From: Liolophura sinensis
Lineage: Eukaryota > Mollusca > Polyplacophora > Chitonida > Chitonidae
Length of the DNA: 64,000 nucleotides
Assembly: GCF_032854445.1 (NCBI RefSeq)
Contig: NC_088300.1
Location: 54,348,984 to 54,412,983, forward strand
Direction of reading: 5' to 3'
In this document: in pieces, positions 27,651 through 42,214 of the stretch
Position numbering within the stretch: the first letter of the stretch is position 1
How the letters are laid out: each line of letters begins with the position of its first letter
Notes under the pieces: model-generated
The model's input: the letters and a program-made list of their open reading frames with translations, nothing else
The model's database searches: none
What the model was told of the DNA's origin: nothing
Made by a program: the position numbers and the translations under genes

Positions 27651-27814
27651 CTGTTTTGTACGAGCTAATCACCCTTTCATGGAGTCCCCAGTATTTGACA
27701 GATGTTCATTGCTAGACTCTAAAACATGTCAGATGTAATGGTAGTAAGTTCTATAGCAGGAAGAAACAGTCCAGAGCAGAGAGGAACTAGCCAATTCTCC
27801 AACTACAGTAGAAA

Positions 27815-28215
27815 CACTACACTTTGACACATACCTAATCCACCAGAATGTTCCTGATACCTCAGAAACACAACACTTTGACACATACCTAAACCACCAG
27901 AATGTACCCCGTACCTCAGAAACACAACACTTTGACACATACCTGATCCACCAGAATATGCCAGGTACCTCAGAAACACAACACTTTGACACATACCTGA
28001 TCCACCACAATATGCCAGGTACCTCAGAATCACAACACTTTGGCGCATACCTAATCCACCAGAATGTACCTGGTACCTCAGAAACACAACACTTTGACAC
28101 ATACCTAATCCACCAGAATGTACCCGGTACCTCAGAAACACAACACTTTGACAGACACCTAAAGCACCAGAATGTGCCGGATACCTCAGAAAAACAACAC
28201 TTTGACATACCTTAA
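27815..28215. repeat. Minisatellite, 54-bp unit (18 codons)
   Basis: Seven to eight copies; the phrase TTTGACACATACCT recurs at 27823, 27877 and 27931, exactly 54 bp apart, and at the same spacing further on. Each unit contains CACCAGAATGT and GTACCTCAGAAAC. As 54 is divisible by 3, frames stay open on both strands for up to 159 codons, giving 18-residue peptide repeats. I read this as a non-coding array: no start context, splice sites or homology. Confidence 0.9.
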
Positions 28216-31356: not shown

Positions 31357-31500
31357 TGTGGTTCATTCAGGCATTTTGTTTTGTTTTTTCCATATACATA
31401 CAGATGTATCACTAATACCAATGTACTCTGTACATCCTAATTAATTAGGACTGGCTAATTTATATAATTTATATTGTTTATCGTACGTGTACTTTTAGTG

Positions 31501-31715
31501 CATGTACATCACACACTGTTTTGTACATGTACATCACACATTGTTTTGTACATGTACATCACACATTGTTTTGTACATGTACATCACACATTGTTTTGTA
31601 CATGTACATCACACATTGTTTTGTACATGTACATCACGTCATTGTTTTGTCATGTACATCATACACTGTTGTGTACATGTACATCACGTCATTGTTTTGT
31701 ACATGTACATCAAAC
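31501..31715. repeat. Minisatellite, 25-bp unit with palindromic core
   Basis: Eight to nine copies of ACATGTACATCACACATTG plus TTTTGT. The spacing between the first and second copy is exactly 25 bp. Each unit carries the palindrome TGTACATGTACA, so a single strand could form serial small hairpins. Confidence 0.9.
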
Positions 31716-33345
31716 ACAGAGGTCCATGGATCTCAATCATACATTATCTTGTACATACAATGATTTATTATACCTGATAATACAGATGCATATCACACAA
31801 CAAAGTGGCCTGATTATCCTTGCAGACACTTGATACCAGTTATTCACGTCAATGTTTAACATCAAACACACCTTGAATTTAATTAAAATATCACATGCAT
31901 AAAATTGTGCTAAATTCTGTACACACATGAATGCATGTTAAATGTCCACTATACCTGTCCTAATTTCAGCTACATGACTGTGTGGACTATTGTGGTGATC
32001 AAGGGGTGAGGGGTGGATGGTGTTGGGGCACTGCAGATTCCATGATAATCAAAAACATATGCACAGGCCAATGGCTCACAATACTAATAAGGAGATACGA
32101 GCAAGCACGTTCCATACCTCGTGCTAAGGAATTTTAAAGAATCATTTTGCTGTTGTCAACTTGGTAAAAGCAGTTGATGTCCAGGTACACAGAAAATCTT
32201 CCAAGTTGAAATAACTCATGACATCCACACAGATGCTAGACTAGCATGGTGAGCATATTGCCTTCCTTTTTCAAGTGTGCCAGAAGACAAGATAAGGTAC
32301 TGAGAGCAACACTAGATTTATCGATCAAATGTTCTCAAGCTACTGCCAATACTGTTTGAATCAATGGTCAATGTCACATTATTTTGAACAATTTCTAACC
32401 AAATAAGCTAATGTGTTGATTGCTCCAACCATGGCCCTAAATTTTTAGTGATGTTTAAAATGTAAAAGCGTTCCTTTCTAATTTACAAATTCAGAATGTG
32501 TTATACCAGAATGTACAAATACTATGCAAATAATTTGAAAAGATTAAATTGTCATACTTCTGTGGAAAAAATATGCATTCATGCAGAATATGTAAGCACA
32601 TTAATAGTGAGCGCAGAATGCAATCAAGGAACCTGGTCTTCTGAACCAGCTGTATGTAAGAAAACAGCCAGGCACCTTCATCCACAAATCGGCCTGGACA
32701 TCTGAGAGAGAAGCCTACACTAGTAGCATCATCACATTCAAACAATTAAACCCCAAACTTGCAAAGACAAAGCAGAATCATGCAGAACTGACGAACGTCA
32801 CAAATATTGGAATGACAGAGTGTTAACTCAATTAAATTCTGTACAATTAAGGATAAATTGAGGACAATGGGTAGCAACTGTTTTCTCCCTACTGAATATG
32901 GGGACATCTTTTCTGCTTTTGTTTGCCTTGAAAACTCTCGTGTACATCTTCTGCTTTGAGCATTTAAATAATAAATCATACATTTCTCAATCTATGTACC
33001 ATCAATATTATACAGATATCAGGTGCTGTGACCTGGCTGAGGTTATAGAGACTGTACACTGTACAGGTACAGATGACCAGCAATTCCAGCCAGCCAGCCA
33101 GCCTTCCAGTCACCGAAGCTACAGTCTGTGGGATAGCATGCTGCTGGCACAAGCATTCAGCTCCAGACTTAACCAGAGTTAACAGTTCCTCACAGGTCAG
33201 CATACACCCACGGGCCCACTGGGGTATATAGACTAAACCTTTACAGGGCTTGTCGCCCCATGGGCTGATGGCTGTGAGTGTGCATAAAGGGGTGAGGACT
33301 GTCACACATGTACACCAGCTGGGGGAGGGGCTGAGTTCCCAGGGG

Positions 33346-36300
33346 TCACTGCTCCCCAGTGTCCCCCTCCTCAGGACCTGGTTTTGATTCTGTCGGTGAC
33401 TGTGGTTGGAACGATGGCAGCTTCTCCTGTAACTGTGCCTGGATGCTCTTCCTCACCTTCTCAGCTTTACGGAAAATTGTGATTTCCTGTCAACAGATTC
33501 ATTGACTGTTTGATTGGAGTTAACATAAAATTATTTTGATTCCCTCACGACAGCACTTCCTTGCAGTAACCTGGTTGCCATACCTGGACAACCATCCTGA
33601 TGATAACATGTTTCATACTCCACTCATGCACTTTCACTTCTTTTTCTCTTCTACTGATTGCAAAATCAGCAACTTGTCTACTGCTTGCAAAGAGCTGTAC
33701 CAAATTACATCTCAGAAAACTACATAGTAGCACAAAATTTACTGACAAGAAACTATAACGACCAATGTTCTGTGGCTTAAGTGGAAGTCTTAATTCACCG
33801 TTCTTTAATGCCATACTCAAGAATTATTCACTTAATCAATATGTGGATCAACTTTATAATGAGTTGAGAAAACTCAAGGTAGAGGAGAAAGGCTCTCCAG
33901 CACTTCTGTAAGGGTGATGACATACCTGCTGTTTGAAGTAGCGCCTCTCCTCTTCATCCACTAGCACAAGGTTCAGGTAATAACGCACTGAGAATTTCTT
34001 ATTGATGTCCCTCATGGTGGGAGTGAGCTCATATCCACTGAGAAACAGCCGGATAGGTATAGACTCCCCTAAAAAACAAAACCAATCAGAATACTACCAC
34101 AATGGAATGTCACAGTAACAAATACATGCAAGAATAGTGATATGAAAATCACTGTATATGTCACTTTACAACTGAAAAATTCATTTTGCTGGATTGGGAT
34201 AAATAGTCCAAAACATGAACCTGTGAGCAAAATAACTGAAACTCTTGAGGGAAATAGCAACAATGTCAGACATTGGCTCAAACAAACATGAGCTGCAAAA
34301 GTGATATAATTCTGTAAAAAATACCATGATGGCCAAGAAAATTTCTATTTATTTATTTACTTATCTGATTTATTTATTTCATTGGTGTTTTCCGCCGTAC
34401 TCAAGAATATTTCACTTATACGACGTCAACCAGCATTGTGGTAGGAGGAAACTGGGCAGAGCCTGGGGGGAACCCACGACCATCTGCAGGTTGCTGGCAA
34501 ACCTTCCCACTTATGGCCAGAGAGGAAGCCAGCAGGAGCTGGAATTCAACTTACAGCGACCGCATTGGTGAGAGGCTCCTGGGTCATTACGCTGCGCTGG
34601 CGCGCTAACCAACTGAGCCACGGAGGCCCCATTTATTATTTGATTCCAGTTTTACACTGTACTCAAAAATATTTTATTTATGCACTGACGGCCAGCAAAT
34701 ATAGTGAAATGATACCCAATGGAAACACACAATCATCCGCAGGTTGCTGAGAAATCTTTGTAAAACTGGGCCCAGGATTTCTATCACAGTGTTTTAAAAT
34801 AAAGGGTTGGCAACTGTTTGTGAAAGGGATGGGCAATCCAACTTACCCCTTACAGGAGCACCATCCATGATTTCATACTTAGCAATTGTTTCATTTTCAT
34901 TGAATGTGTTTGGGCCTGTAATATAAGGTATTATGAGATTATAGCATTCAACAAATACTTGTCAAAAGTTCTGGCAATTTTTACAGAATACAAACAAGCA
35001 ACCTGCTCATATTAAAAAGATCATGAACAATTTAATACTGTTTAGAGAAAAAAGATCCGATTTCACAAAAAACAAAATTCACAGAATAAATTTTTACACA
35101 AAAACATTCAGAACTGGTTATGTTTCCTACATTGTAAATATTCATACAGGCTCTTTAGGCATTTATTTTATTCCAACACAAAAGTTATCAAACCATGGCA
35201 AAAAAACAACAGTTCAGTTAAAGACTTAATCAAACAAATGATAATAAAATGCAAGAATATGGTAGTATATATACTTGGGGTGCAGAAAAAATGAAAAAAT
35301 AACAATGTTCTATACGCATAAATGGTGAGGCCCAACAATGTGCTAAGTTTCACAATCCATCACACAAAAACTATTGCATCCTTCAAAGCTCAGAGCACTG
35401 CCAATCTAAATCATGTAAATGAACGTAAAAACGTAGTGCTGACAACCTAAATTAATGTCCAAAAGTATGGTTTGTGCTTAACAGAAATGTTCAATACATT
35501 ATTCCCTGTTTAGTCATATTCTAGCTATTACAAAGGCAAATGGTACCCTAACTGACCATAAATTCTGTCCATGACTTGCCAATTTTTCCTGATTCTGAAA
35601 GTTCTATTGACTTTAGAAAGTGTTTTCAGGTTTGCTTGGAACATGGGGTGATACTCTACTGGAAAATTGTAAGTTTCTGTACCAAAAAAAAAATAGTCTG
35701 TGACGTTTATTTGCTCCAAAATACACTTTTGTGGGTGAAATTTTAGGTAATTTAAGGTATATTTTACAAATAGGCATTTGAAATGGTAAATGACCTTCTT
35801 TTATATTCTAAGAATATTTAAAGGTTATAATGTTATGTTTCTAAAGGCAATGGACACATTTTTAGAGACAATGGACATTTCTGTTATATTCTTGGCATTT
35901 TTAAAGTTACAGGCAAATGACACTTCTGTTATATACTAGGCTTATTTAAATGCAAAGGATACTTTATAGGCAATTAAAAAGGCAAAGGTACACTTTTTTT
36001 TTAAATGCAAATGTATTTTATCCTTTGATTTAGGCATTTGTAAAGGCAATGGACACTTCTCAGTATTATAATTCTTACATAACATAACTTATAAATTTTC
36101 ACAAGGTATCACTGCATCACACAAGTTACAGTAGCAAGAATGAGAAATGTTGGAGGCCTTGACTTATGAGGGTTAAAGGTGTGTTTCCATGGAGATGAAC
36201 TCTGACCTGTTCCAGTACTCTCTCTCTTGATAATTTGAAGTTTCCATGTGCTTGATTTTTATCCTGACAAGCAGGAAATAAATCTTGCCAACTATAACAT

Positions 36301-39300
36301 CTTTCAAATGATACCTGAGAGAAAGAAACACAAAAAAAAACTGAAAAACACAAAAAATAAAACACAGAAAAGGGCAAATATAGAGTATATAGATCATTAC
36401 TAGGTTACTAACGAGACAAAACATTTGTGGAGACAACAGCACATGATCACATTACATGCCCATGCTTCAACATTAAGCATTTCAACAAAACATATATACA
36501 AACATTGACATCCTGACACTCAAGCAAACCAATAATCTGGTCTTCTCAGTACTTGGTTGTTTATCAATTAAAAGAAAGGTGTAACATATCAGGGCCAAAT
36601 CTAGAAAAATACAAAGATCTTGTAAAATGCAACTCAAAACAATGTTTTCTGAGAGCTTTGATGTCCGTAAATGAAAGAAATTTGTATAACTGAGCTAACA
36701 ACTTGTATTGGTAAACCATCATATTTATGTACAATTTAAGTGTTGTTTTTAACACAGCTGGATTGGTTTAGGCACACAAATGTTTTCCAGAATTAAAATG
36801 GCTCCAGATATGTCCCTGCATACTATAGAATATATCGCCAGAAATGCTTGATATTTCCGTATGCAAATACATATAAAAAAAATTTTCATGATTTTTTTTA
36901 TTATAGTGCCTAACAATAAACTGTTAAATGTAAGCTCTAGCAAATGGCTCAGATTATATGCACATGAGGGAAGCAGCCTGGCCCACAAATGGAAGTGAAA
37001 TCCAGTTCCGCTGATGTGAATAGGGCTGCACACACATTACTCAGGTGTAATGTGCATTACTCTGCCCAACTGACACAGACAACACAGGAATTCTCCCAAA
37101 TGTGGCTGCCTCCAATCAAATGTACATCGTTATATTTTATCACCATTCAAGAATTAGTCATTTCAAACAATTTCATTGAAGACAAAGACAAGACTGAAAA
37201 GAGAAAAGACAAATCTTTCAGGTGATATTATAATGTTTAATGCTCACTTTTCTTAACAAAAATAAAAAAAAATGCTTGTTTAACAGTTCAACAAATAATT
37301 ATTTATATCAGCCAACAACCAGAAAGTATTGAGAAGACCAATGTAAGACAGACAATACATAGAGAGATCTTGGAGAGTGCAAAGTCTTCTTGAGCTGTAG
37401 CCACAACAGCTGTGAGCTGCTCAACAAAGACTCAAGACTAGTCCAGTATGATCCCAAGTCCAGACTGACGTGGATCTGTATTATAGTAACATCTACCTGA
37501 GCCAGTTGTCTCCCTTCGCACTATAGCCAGCTCCATATATCGTATCTTTATACGTACCAGGAGAAAATAAATTTTCCCCACTATAACATCCTGCAAGTGA
37601 TATCTCCAAAGAGCAATAACAAAGAAAGTATTTTGTTAGAAACCAGTAGAAGTCACTTCCTGCACATTTTTAGAATACTGCAATTGTTCATCATGTTCAA
37701 TTGTGAAATCACCTCACAGATTTTTTTTTTGGTTTGTTAATTTTCATCAGCTAATGGAGCTGATAATGTAATAAGGATGAACCTTCTCTAGATTTAAACC
37801 CAAATTCTCATTCATGAAGAGACTACAACAAATGCACCTATGATAGTACCCTTTTCTGTGCATGTAATAACATCAATGTTCAACAGACTTTTTATTTGGT
37901 GGTGTTTAATGCTGCACTCCAGAATTTGCCATTTATGACCATGACATTTATGGGTGGAGAAAACTAGAACACTGGCAAGAAATAACAACTCTGGAAGGAA
38001 ACCACAAGGTATCAAACCCTTCACTAGACATCTAACAAAAATCCTCCTGTTAAAAACAAGCCTCTACTCACTTAGCTTTCTTCTTGGGCTAATTACAACC
38101 AGAAATTCCGATTTCAGATTCAATCTCCTGTTTTTTTTCAATAATAAAACCACAACTCTTCACACGCTCCATCAAGTTGAACAAATTTTGAAAATGGTTT
38201 CTTTCCAGGAGACATGTCAGACATTTTTCCACCTTTAATCTCAACTCAGTATTTTGGGAATGACTTGGTCTAAGGATAAAGTGGTTGTACTCACTTGGAC
38301 TTGTTGTATTCAAACTCTATGTGTAGGCAGTCCTCGATGCCCACCTCCATCTTGATGCTGTTATTCATCTCCGGGTATGAGGATAATGTATGCACAACTA
38401 TATCCTGTTCTTTTACGATATCACTCAAACGTTTTACAACTGTCACCCGTAGAAAGTAACTGCAAACGGAATTCACAAAACATCCATGTTATATTTACAA
38501 ACATGTATTTATTTATCTGACTGATATTTCATGGCCTACTTAAGAATGATTCTCTTACAAGACAGTGACCAGCATCATGGTGGGAGGAAACTGAGCAGAG
38601 CCAGGTTAAACCCAAGACAACCTGCAGGTTGCTGGCAGACTTTCTCACATTAAACCGGGTAAAAAAGCATGAGTTGGACTTGAGTTTTGCAAATGCAAAT
38701 TTTTCTAACAATTCATCACAAGGCGGAAATAATCACACCTGTACCTGTAGACAAAATACTACCTTGATAGTAAAAGAAAAGACAACAAATGATATACCCT
38801 TAATTATTTTGGAAAGAGGGTGGAAACAATTCAACAATTGCAGCCATTTTTTCTTGCTGTGCTTGGTCAGTCTATAAACTTTTAATGTGGAACTATTGCA
38901 AGGCAGAGAGGGATATGCTACACTAATTGAGAAACCAAAAAACAAAACATCAGGTTCCTAGTATCATAAATTCAACAGTGTACATGGCAAAAAGACAAGG
39001 CAGGGATCGCATGACATCAAAGAAGAAAGAGGCATGTTCACAAGTTACTGAAATAACTTGTACCTAATTTGTTAAAATTGATTGTTAAAACATTGCGGTT
39101 TACTCCATGTAGGCATTTTGTCCTCAACTTGATCCACGTTATTTTGACTATAGAAGACCACTAAAATAATTGGTGGGATACTTTCAGCACTACATATATG
39201 CACTTCGTCTATTGCAGTCTTTCAAGAAAAGTTCATGCATTCATTAAACTCAGTTAGCAACAAAGTTAAAACTCACCGTAACCGCACATTTGCCCCTGTG

Positions 39301-42214
39301 TACGATTCATATGGCTTTTCCACCTGAAGAAACTCAAAGCCATAACTAGAACTCTGAGTTAACTCCCCTGGTCTGGCTAATTCTTTGACTAGTGATGTAA
39401 ATTCATGGTGGTTTCCTCTGTCATAGTACAATTCTGCACAAAATAATGTTGTGTCAACTTGTAAACAACTAAATCAGACATCAGAATGAAATTTCACAGA
39501 GACATATAAGACTCCTTAATTTAGTTACATTTAGTTACAAAACAAGGAAAAAAATCCTACTTGATCAAGTCACACAGCTGAAAGCAGGAATATGTCAGCT
39601 TGCTGCTTTTTGTTTTTGATTGACGCTTGACTGAGTTCATTGATTGACGTTTATCTTTGTTTAAGATGCCATTATTTAGCAATGTATAGGCAACTGATTT
39701 CTGAGTGAAAAGAACATGATATCGCTGCAAACAATCACATCATTTAAATATGCTCTTCTTTACATTATTTAAGAACATGTCACAACTGTCAGTTGTGTTA
39801 AATGATAAAAAAATAGGTAATGGAAAGTGAAACTTTGTCTATAAGACGAGGGCATCTCCTGATGCAATATGAGAAATTCTGAAACTTTTAAAAACTGGGA
39901 AAACCAAACAAATTAGCATAAAGTATAAGAATCTACACAGTACAAAATTAACACACATATTTCAAACCTCCCAGAAGTAAAACTATCTGATGTTCACAGA
40001 AGAACAAACCTACCTATTTGACCTATGAATTCTATCTTTATTCCTTGATGTTCTAATTTACTTCCCGACTTTCGGAGAGTGATGTTCACCTGAAAGTAGC
40101 AGATTGCATTGTCCACTATTATCACATAAGAAGTACAAGAGTTTTTTTTTTTAAAATAGTACACATCCTTGCCAAAGGTCAAATGGAAAAATTTATGCTT
40201 GACATTTTCTTTTACTCTGGCTAATTAAAAAGGTAATGATAAAACATAAATTAACATTGAGAGATAAATTAAAAGACATCAAAAGACCTTTTTGATGTTG
40301 AGCCCTTCTTTTGAAGGGTTCTTCAATAAGTGATGCCTATTGAACATATTTTTAATGATGACCTTGTCTATTTGTTTATATGTATATCAGAAAGCAAACG
40401 GAACGTGGAACATTATATATACAGGGTAGTGTTCAGAGACTGTGTGTCTGGACACCTACCTTGCCGGCCACCGTCTCCCCATCAAAGTACAGGTAGTATC
40501 TTTCTTTCTTTCCATCTTCAGTTTTAATTTCTGCTGTTTTTCTCTTGTCTTGACCTTCTAACACAATGTCTATGTCAGCACTCTGGCCAAAACCAAAGAA
40601 ACTCTAAAACATGCAAAAAAAAAAAAAGGGAAGAAAAAAAGTTAGTAAATGTCATTCAGGATATTGGGCTGATGTCTAGCCTCTTTTGCAAACTATGACT
40701 TACTTTAGCTCAGTAGAAAATTACAAGTGTTACCCTATTTAACATGAAAAACTTGTCATTCATAATAATCTCTCAACTTACAGAACTGCTTATTTATCAA
40801 AGGTTTATGTTTACTTGTTCCATTCAATATGCTGTTTGAAGGAGTCCAACAGCAGGCTCTTGAAAGGCATGCTGATCATCCAACAGGAAATCAATGCCAG
40901 AATCTGCAAACCTGTAACTGTGGTTCACGTGCGAAAGAAGGTACAATGTATTTATTTACTTATCTGATTAGAGTTTTACGCCGTACTCAAGAATATTTCA
41001 CTTCTACGACGACAGCGAGCATTATGGTGGGAGGAAACCCACAACCATCCACAGGTTGCCGACAAACCTTCCCGCGTACGGCCGGAGAGGAAGGCAACAT
41101 GAGCTGGGCTTGAACTCACAGCCGCCGTATTGGTGAGAGACAGCTGGGTCATTACGCTGTGCTATTGCGCTAACCTACTGAGCCATGGGGGCCCCCAACA
41201 GTCCCCTAAGATGGATATTTTTCACCAAAATGAGTGCTTGTTAAGGCAATTCTTAGCTGTAAGTACTGAAACAGATTTGTGGATTATGGTGTCACTTATA
41301 TTTGAAGAAATTCTGTCACAACTACATGTACTATCAGAATTAAAATGAGTAGGGATAGAACAATACTGCTGAATACACAATTATATAGCATAGACAATTT
41401 AGACCAGCAAATTACTCGGAAAATATCTTAGTGGTAGTGGAAATAATTAGTCTGAATTTTCTGAATCAAACATACAGCAGATATTGTAAGAAGCCTTATG
41501 CAGTTCTGATCAGATGTCGGCCCAGTTAGCATCATCAACAGTATGACGTGTGTGACATAAGCAGTTCTGCATGGACAATAGCAGATGTAGTGAAAGGGTG
41601 AATGAAGACTTTGTTCGTCAAAATACTGTTTAACATAGTACAAAAAGTAAATGTAGACGAGTAGAGAAGAAATATAAAGCGCTTGAACGCAGATCAAAGA
41701 AGAGGTTAAAGTATGTAATTGCAAGATTGTTTCGAAACCTAATCATTCCAAGTGAACAGACGTCTGCCCAGAACAGCAGCATGTCAATACGTTTTGTAAG
41801 TTCTAGTCAGAAGAATCGGACTATTCTAAGAAAGAATAGGCCTGTATTCGCAACGAATCAGCAGCACAGGGCGTAAACTAAAGGGATAAGTACTTGCATA
41901 TTCTAAAACCGGCAGCACAGTAGGAATTTGTCTCAGTGTTTGTGTACTTTAGTTGAGTGTCAAAAATGTAATTTCCGGACCCCGGGCGATCAGCGGGTGT
42001 TATTTCGTGCAGCGATCGCTGGATGGCATTTGTTGATAACTGTCACATGATGCACACCCCCCTTTTGACTGACCTGCTCAATCCAAACCTTATGTCAGGC
42101 CAAAATGAACATTTATAAGAGTTCAGTCGACTGTAGATATGTTCATTGATAAATCAACTTTAGGAGTGAAAGAGCAAAAATATTGAAATGTTCTGATTAC
42201 ACGACATCCATACC
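33346..42214 (-). CDS. VPS26: VPS26, retromer arrestin-like subunit, complete
   Basis: Exons in transcript order: 42214-42212 side (ATG only, at 42216-42214), 40603-40460, 40089-40014, 39433-39277, 38459-38295, 37603-37497, 34915-34847, 34068-33926, 33486-33346 (TGA). Phases fit and total about 334 codons; human VPS26A/B have 327/336. VPS26 binds VPS35 in the retromer coat that recycles cargo from endosomes. Diagnostic blocks are FGFGQSADIDIVLEG, LEHQGIKIEFIGQIELYYD, VKELARPGELTQSSSYGFEF, VEKPYESYTGANVRLRYFLR, NNSIKMEVGIEDCLHIEFEY, KYEIMDGAPVRGESIPIRLF and FSVRYYLNLVLVDEEERRYF. YELTPTMRDINKKFSVRYY resembles VPS26B more than VPS26A. The C-terminal tail is acidic and Pro/Ser-rich, as is usual. 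Exon 1 coding only ATG is known in the family; ATG|GTATGG at 42216-42212 is my candidate and is the weakest part. A second version of the 107-nt exon lies at 36314-36207 (separate entry). Confidence 0.95.
34340..34632 (-). repeat. Full-length SINE family A, reverse orientation
   Basis: On the plus strand: TTTATTTCATTGGTG, CCGTACTCAAGAATATTTCA, ACCCACGACCATCTGCAGG, GACCGCATTGGTGAGAGGCT, and the inverted A box AACCAACTGAGCCACGGAGG. It lies in a VPS26 intron, sense to the gene. Confidence 0.92.
34633..34760 (-). repeat. Second SINE family A copy, truncated, directly adjoining
   Basis: Starts at once after the preceding element: ATTTATTATTTGATTCCAGT, ACTGTACTCAAAAATATTTT, then AATCATCCGCAGGTTGCTGA. 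It lacks the tRNA-like head and is more diverged, so it is probably the older element into whose end the other inserted. Confidence 0.8.
35750..36060. repeat. Degenerate tandem repeat in VPS26 intron
   Basis: The phrases AGGCAATGGACACTTCT, TTATATTCT and AGGCATTTTTAAAG recur in varied form about every 60 bp, four to six times. Copies are heavily diverged. The block ends about 150 bp downstream (in transcript sense) of the frameshifted duplicate exon. Confidence 0.6.
36207..36314 (-). pseudogene. VPS26: Duplicate VPS26 exon with a 1-nt insertion
   Basis: This exon encodes KYHLKDVIVGKIYFLLVRIK like the intact exon at 37603-37497 (KYHLQDVIVGKIYFLLVRIK). It has a good acceptor (CTCTCAG) and a donor (ACAG|GTCAGA). 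It is 108 nt against 107 for its twin. The difference maps to GGAAAC near 36240-36244, where the family reads GGAAC. After that base the original frame gives unrelated residues, while the shifted frame ends with IIKRESTGTG, matching the family's IIKRETTGTG. Both exons enter and leave in the same phase, so they could only be used one at a time. The extra A may be a real lesion or a homopolymer error in the sequence. Confidence 0.85.
37895..38030 (-). repeat. Diverged SINE-like element (family C)
   Basis: TTTATTTGGTGGTGTTTAAT, GCTGCACTCCAGAATTTGCC and GGAAACCACAAGGTATCAAA in this order resemble an inverted SINE tail and body, related to copies at 57.55 and 59.34 kb. Low similarity; tentative. 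Confidence 0.45.
38505..38660 (-). repeat. Truncated SINE family A, reverse orientation
   Basis: TTTATTTATCTGACTGATAT, ACCAGCATCATGGTGGGAGG and AACCTGCAGGTTGCTGGCAG match the tail and body of family A. The head is missing. VPS26 intron, sense orientation. Confidence 0.82.
40948..41198 (-). repeat. Near full-length SINE family A, reverse orientation
   Basis: TTTACGCCGTACTCAAGAAT, GAGCATTATGGTGGGAGGAA, ACGGCCGGAGAGGAAGG and GCGCTAACCTACTGAGCCAT follow the family A order. A short internal deletion removes the GGGCAGAGCCCGGGG segment. VPS26 intron, sense orientation. Confidence 0.9.

Follow-up and report, generated by a model that had tools for sequence, protein, structure and literature searches.

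The gene for VPS26, a highly conserved subunit of retromer, carries two tandem copies of its exon 6 in the chiton Liolophura sinensis, and its reading frame demands that exactly one of them be used. Both copies lie on the minus strand of a 64,000-nt stretch of contig NC_088300.1 (C6:54348984–54412983; hereafter the window, whose own numbering is used for all features within it). Exon 6A (37497–37603, 107 nt) is intact and exon 6B (36207–36314, 108 nt) holds one extra base, so that only 6A works in the sequence as it stands. The reading that we favour, at a probability of about 0.6, is that 6A and 6B are an old tandem pair of alternative exons, both long constrained, and that a real single-base insertion then disabled 6B.

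An earlier reading of this DNA, made from its letters without database searches (the sequence-only reading), had proposed that the two exons encode the same segment of VPS26, and this proposal holds both in a global alignment, in which 71 of 108 columns are identical with a single 1-nt gap, and against the 20,000 random controls described below. Each copy is preceded by AG and followed by GT (acceptor ttggag and donor gtagat for 6A, ctctcag and gtcaga for 6B), and both, in the same phase, join the end of exon 5 (38295–38459, minus strand; end at 38295) to the start of exon 7 (34847–34915, minus strand; start at 34915). Exon 6A translates to YHLQDVIVGKIYFLLVRIKIRYMELAIVRRETTGSG, and 6B to YHLKDVIVGKIYFLLVRIKIKHME in frame 0 followed by IIKRESTGTG in the shifted frame. 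The gap can be placed in three equivalent ways around a GGAAAC run of 6B (36240–36245, read from 36245 down to 36240 on the minus strand), exactly where the earlier reading had put one extra base.

Placing 6A between exons 5 and 7 keeps the frame open. With 6B alone, the shifted frame meets a stop in exon 7, after 223 residues; with 6A and 6B together, a stop follows after 220 residues, in 6B, bearing out the claim that including both same-phase exons breaks the frame; and with neither copy, translation stops after 187 residues. The pair thus shares with mutually exclusive exons a homologous, adjacent and internal position, a common phase, shared flanking exons and a frame that is broken by both copies or by neither. 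It departs from them in one respect, namely that each copy alone should give an intact protein, which 6A does and 6B, owing to its extra base, does not. Exclusion by steric block, in which the intron between the copies is too short to splice, does not apply here because the 6A–6B intron is 1182 nt long.

No third copy of the exon was found among the window matches listed or in a genome-wide search with the Pfam Vps26 profile (PF03643), and 6B is present once in the assembly, in which no second haplotig of it was found. The 100-nt intron flanks of 6A and 6B show no similarity above that of shuffled sequences (score reached by 268 and 261 of 300), consistent with a tandem duplication that is evidently old. 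Two possible rescues of 6B were rejected by eye: an AG 26 nt upstream of its acceptor restores the downstream length while placing the 5′ part in a stop-containing frame, and the next GT past its donor gives the wrong length. To our knowledge, no known slippery site is apparent, and on that ground we set aside programmed ribosomal frameshifting.

The divergence between the copies points to selection on both. We compared 24 codons before and 10 after the insertion, excluding the codon blurred by it. Over these 34 codons, 6A and 6B differ at 8 first, 4 second and 22 third codon positions; synonymous differences are saturated (ps 0.96), the nonsynonymous divergence Ka is 0.18, and 26 of the 34 residues are identical. 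When an equal number of differences was placed at random sites, starting from either copy, 0 of 20,000 trials reached 26 identical residues. Because synonymous sites are saturated at a Ka of 0.18 and no control matched the observed identity, the comparison argues that selection acted on the protein sequence of both 6A and 6B through most of the history that they share.

Comparison with VPS26 proteins of known structure, which we take to be mouse VPS26B (2r51), human VPS26A (2fau) and a fungal VPS26 (6h7w), separates the two copies further. Across 35 columns, in two pieces around the insertion and with the one column at the insertion excluded, 6B agrees with VPS26B at 33 and with VPS26A at 30, compared with 28 and 25 for 6A; residues absent from both vertebrate proteins number 1 in 6B and 7 in 6A. 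In the first part of the segment, where the fungal protein reads YHLKDVIVGRIYFLLVRLKIKHM, 20 of 23 columns are identical in the fungal, VPS26B and VPS26A proteins, and 6B keeps all 20 of these and 6A keeps 18. For scale, identity to VPS26B is 82% in exon 5, 83% in exon 7, 96% in exon 8 and 77% in exon 6A. Exon 6B looks like the more ancestral copy and 6A like the derived one, which reverses the sequence-only reading, where the frameshifted copy had been treated as the odd one.

The same conservation limits the probable age of the frame break. If 6B has been drifting freely since the insertion, at most 1 change at about 80 nonsynonymous sites corresponds to a neutral distance below about 0.04–0.06 substitutions per site (95%). 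With the distance since the break bounded in this way, the break should be recent, or confined to one haplotype, or an error. For comparison, the genome paper puts the distance between alleles of the sequenced animal at 0.0124 (PMC11068029). This bound bears on the possibility that 6B has long been dead and still resembles protein by accident, having decayed slowly. The broken frame of 6B, and the fact that a complete product can be made without it, agree with such a history, yet we judge it highly improbable: a single residue of 35 in 6B is foreign to both vertebrate proteins, little drift can have accumulated since the break, and the small neutral distance since then contrasts with the saturation of synonymous sites between the copies.

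The extra base could also be a consensus error, in which case 6A and 6B would both be functional and mutually exclusive. Exon 6B is otherwise intact, with splice sites present and a near match to VPS26B, as such an error would predict. The assembly, moreover, is by strong inference that of the Liolophura japonica genome paper, which gives 14X HiFi coverage with Omni-C and a heterozygosity of 1.24%, so that some stretches rest on few reads (PMC11068029). As a control for frame breaks, we took adjacent profile matches less than 45 nt apart as the signature of a frame change inside an exon, and found no such split among 81 matches to the myosin head and 49 to HSP70 (130 matches; 35,211 nt, some of it intron), a test that is blind to breaks near match ends or with a low-scoring second half. 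Several of the myosin and HSP70 matches contain stops, probably from running into introns. Among 13 matches to VPS35, 7 are free of stops and the other 6 have stops at an end, outside the VPS35-like stretch. Because no frame split occurred in the 130 matches, the chance that any one 108-nt exon holds an error is, as a rough measure, below about 1%. Further, the insertion sits in a run of only 3 A, and HiFi errors fall mainly in long homopolymers.

The HiFi origin of the assembly, the short run and the lack of other frame splits in the genes examined lead us to lean towards a real insertion, short of proof. An error is unlikely on this evidence, and we still allow it an appreciable chance because it is also improbable that the better conserved copy was lost so recently. 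The sequence-only reading had left two choices, a sequencing error in an alternative exon or the recent death of one. What the two have in common, an old tandem pair of which exactly one is usable at a time, is supported, and the choice between error and death leans towards death.

The splice sites of the two copies are weak and unequal. The acceptor of 6A has a G at −3, a base that none of 14 other acceptors (8 from VPS26 and 6 from VPS35) has at that position; acceptors with G at −3 are generally weak. A ctaac upstream of it is, by eye, a candidate branch site. The acceptor of 6B, with a pyrimidine-rich stretch ending in ctctcag, looks better. The donors of 6A and 6B are the weakest of 8 VPS26 donors, with 2 of 4 consensus matches at +3 to +6, and among 12 other donors 1 is as weak. 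For the VPS35 sites in this background, 11 junctions were tried and 6 kept, on our assessment of frame and splice sites, while 5 had no convincing pair; the chain omits 1 of the 13 VPS35 matches. Such sites fit alternative exons and prove nothing.

We also looked at RNA pairing between introns in three intron pairs, for which 12, 80 and 53 of 200 shuffles scored as high as the best pairing. The strongest candidate joins a 12-nt stretch in the intron before 6A (37849–37860, minus strand) to its complement about 50 nt upstream of the 6B acceptor (36363–36374, minus strand), a pairing that would loop out 6A; with its score reached by 12 of 200 shuffles, pairing near 6A and 6B is not clearly above chance.

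The contrast in acceptors gives some encouragement to another account, in which 6B now acts as a poison exon and regulated splicing into it lowers VPS26 output through nonsense-mediated decay. Here 6B would draw on its better-looking acceptor in competition with the poor one of 6A, and both 6B-containing products stop early, in exon 7 for 6B alone and in 6B for 6A and 6B together, ahead of the last junction and with at least two junctions downstream. A parallel comes from human U2AF1, in which transcripts with both or neither of its duplicated exons decay (PMC5224494). Set against this, 6B is conserved as protein sequence, and its frame was broken too recently for selection on a new function to be visible; we hold the account to be improbable. 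The same low standing applies to its most specific form, that a coding alternative exon has just been turned by one base into a poison exon of VPS26 that competes with 6A and sets the level of VPS26. If it were true, the sequence would show an exon swap midway through turning into a switch for the expression of a retromer gene.

The history that we prefer, of an old alternative pair followed by a real insertion in 6B, begins with a tandem duplication of VPS26 exon 6 that gave rise to 6A and 6B. The frame enforces the use of one copy only, both or neither leading to an early stop, and purifying selection kept both copies until synonymous sites were saturated; so much is shown here, together with the broken frame of 6B, whereas it is an inference that both once served as alternative exons. 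A one-base insertion, recently fixed or segregating in the sequenced animal, would then have disabled 6B. In the sequenced haplotype, VPS26 protein would come only from 6A transcripts, and any splicing into 6B would yield an early-stop transcript that nonsense-mediated decay is expected to remove. Should the insertion be real, an old alternative exon has been caught at the moment of its loss, with the more ancestral copy the one being lost.

Several considerations weigh against this history. It is surprising that the copy lost should be 6B, which lies nearest to the ancestral sequence and whose acceptor looks the better of the two, and 6A, whose acceptor is unlike the 14 others compared, may splice poorly. 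The comparison of donors rests on a small sample. Finally, a total coverage of 14X amounts to about 7X per haplotype, at which a consensus error could still occur.

What a choice between the copies would change in the protein appears limited. The exon 6 segment covers residues 183–217, or roughly 185–219 of VPS26A by alignment offset, and presumably lies in the C-terminal domain of VPS26. This domain binds VPS35, according to the title of Shi et al. 2006 (cited in PMC2699828). The sequence-only reading had suggested that the two versions could tune retromer binding, an idea for which we found no direct support: differences between 6A and 6B are few and mostly conservative, and the core FLLVRIKI is identical. 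Because both exons keep this core, a large difference in assembly between the two versions is not expected. Two solved chains, 3lh8 and 3lha, which we take to be mutants, differ from 2r51 within the segment and have FLSVEIKI for FLLVRIKI; a VPS26B L197S change was not found in the literature searched.

Spliced with 6A, the gene that houses the pair encodes an intact protein of 334 amino acids ending at a stop codon and counting an assumed first methionine, the ATG of which was supplied by hand and is taken to lie in an upstream exon 1 that was not located. In addition to exons 5 and 7, the model consists, all on the minus strand, of exon 2 (40460–40603, starting SFFGFGQSADIDIVL), exon 3 (40014–40089), exon 4 (39277–39433), exon 8 (33926–34068) and the last coding exon, which includes the stop codon (33346–33486). 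The 6A isoform matches PF03643 over the whole profile (positions 1–275 of 275) at 459.1 bits, against a cut-off of 27. Among solved structures, its best match is VPS26B (2r51, E value 1.8e-159), followed by VPS26A (2fau, 1.1e-149) and, far behind, VPS26C (8p0x, 4.5e-09), which identifies the predicted protein as VPS26A/B in type, closer to VPS26A/B than to VPS26C.

The genome searched comprises 609,464,459 bases in 632 contigs. Of 8 PF03643 matches in it, 7 belong to the VPS26 gene of the window and 1 lies on contig C1, where it scores 37 bits in the genome search, above the Pfam cut-off, and 20.5 bits, below it, as a 45-residue piece; its translation resembles what we take to be VPS26C. This search locates a single VPS26A/B gene in the assembly. 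As expected for an animal gene, no relatives of VPS26 were found in bacterial and archaeal genome contigs or in viral contigs.

Dispersed repeats resembling short interspersed nuclear elements (ggcctccgtggctcagttggttagcgc..., possibly derived from tRNA by their look) lie in or next to VPS26 at 34340–34650, 38507–38650 and 40940–41200, with fragments at 33790 and 37891, and are 67–85% alike to reference copies. A 25-nt unit is repeated in tandem about 9 times at 31494–31716, past the stop codon of VPS26 and perhaps within or close to its 3′ untranslated region. A second tandem array, at 27810–28207, has a 54-nt unit in about 7.4 copies (90% matches) and leaves long open frames on both strands.

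Elsewhere in the genome, two adjacent matches (C1:26642195–26642299 and C1:26643291–26643386) cover one and the same part of the myosin head, profile positions 118–152 and 121–152, and may be alternative exons in tandem within a muscle myosin gene, an arrangement known from other animals. Five HSP70 matches, each covering the whole model, free of stops and with nearly equal scores, lie within about 67 kb at C10:18983545–19050453, split two to three between the strands. Among 132 kinesin matches, inspection by eye picked out one overlapping pair (C6:59112099–59112329 and C6:59112308–59112781, with 4 and 6 internal stops) that probably spans an intron.

Exon pairs of this kind are already known. 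In human U2AF1, exons 3 and Ab are likewise homologous, adjacent internal exons in the same phase, with a stop resulting from both or neither, and an exon that is recognised less favourably competes with one that has a long pyrimidine tract, a contrast in acceptors similar to that between 6A and 6B (PMC5224494). Unlike the U2AF1 pair, one VPS26 copy is frameshifted, so that only one of the two predicted alternatives can give protein. A survey of tandem duplicated exon substitutions in human counts 236 events in 214 genes; similar to 6A and 6B, these are old, constrained homologous exons that swap one segment of a protein, and its main text makes no mention of VPS26 (PMC9741552). No report of an alternative or mutually exclusive VPS26 exon turned up among the papers listed in searches of open-licence literature, within which VPS26 appears to be new to this class.

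Vertebrates have two genes, VPS26A and VPS26B. The chiton pair recalls them in that the 6A isoform is a complete VPS26 and 6B shares 33 of 35 residues with VPS26B, and differs from them in that a single VPS26A/B gene, with two versions of one exon, was found here. If both exons are or were used, splicing of one gene would have given something comparable to the split between VPS26A and VPS26B in vertebrates.

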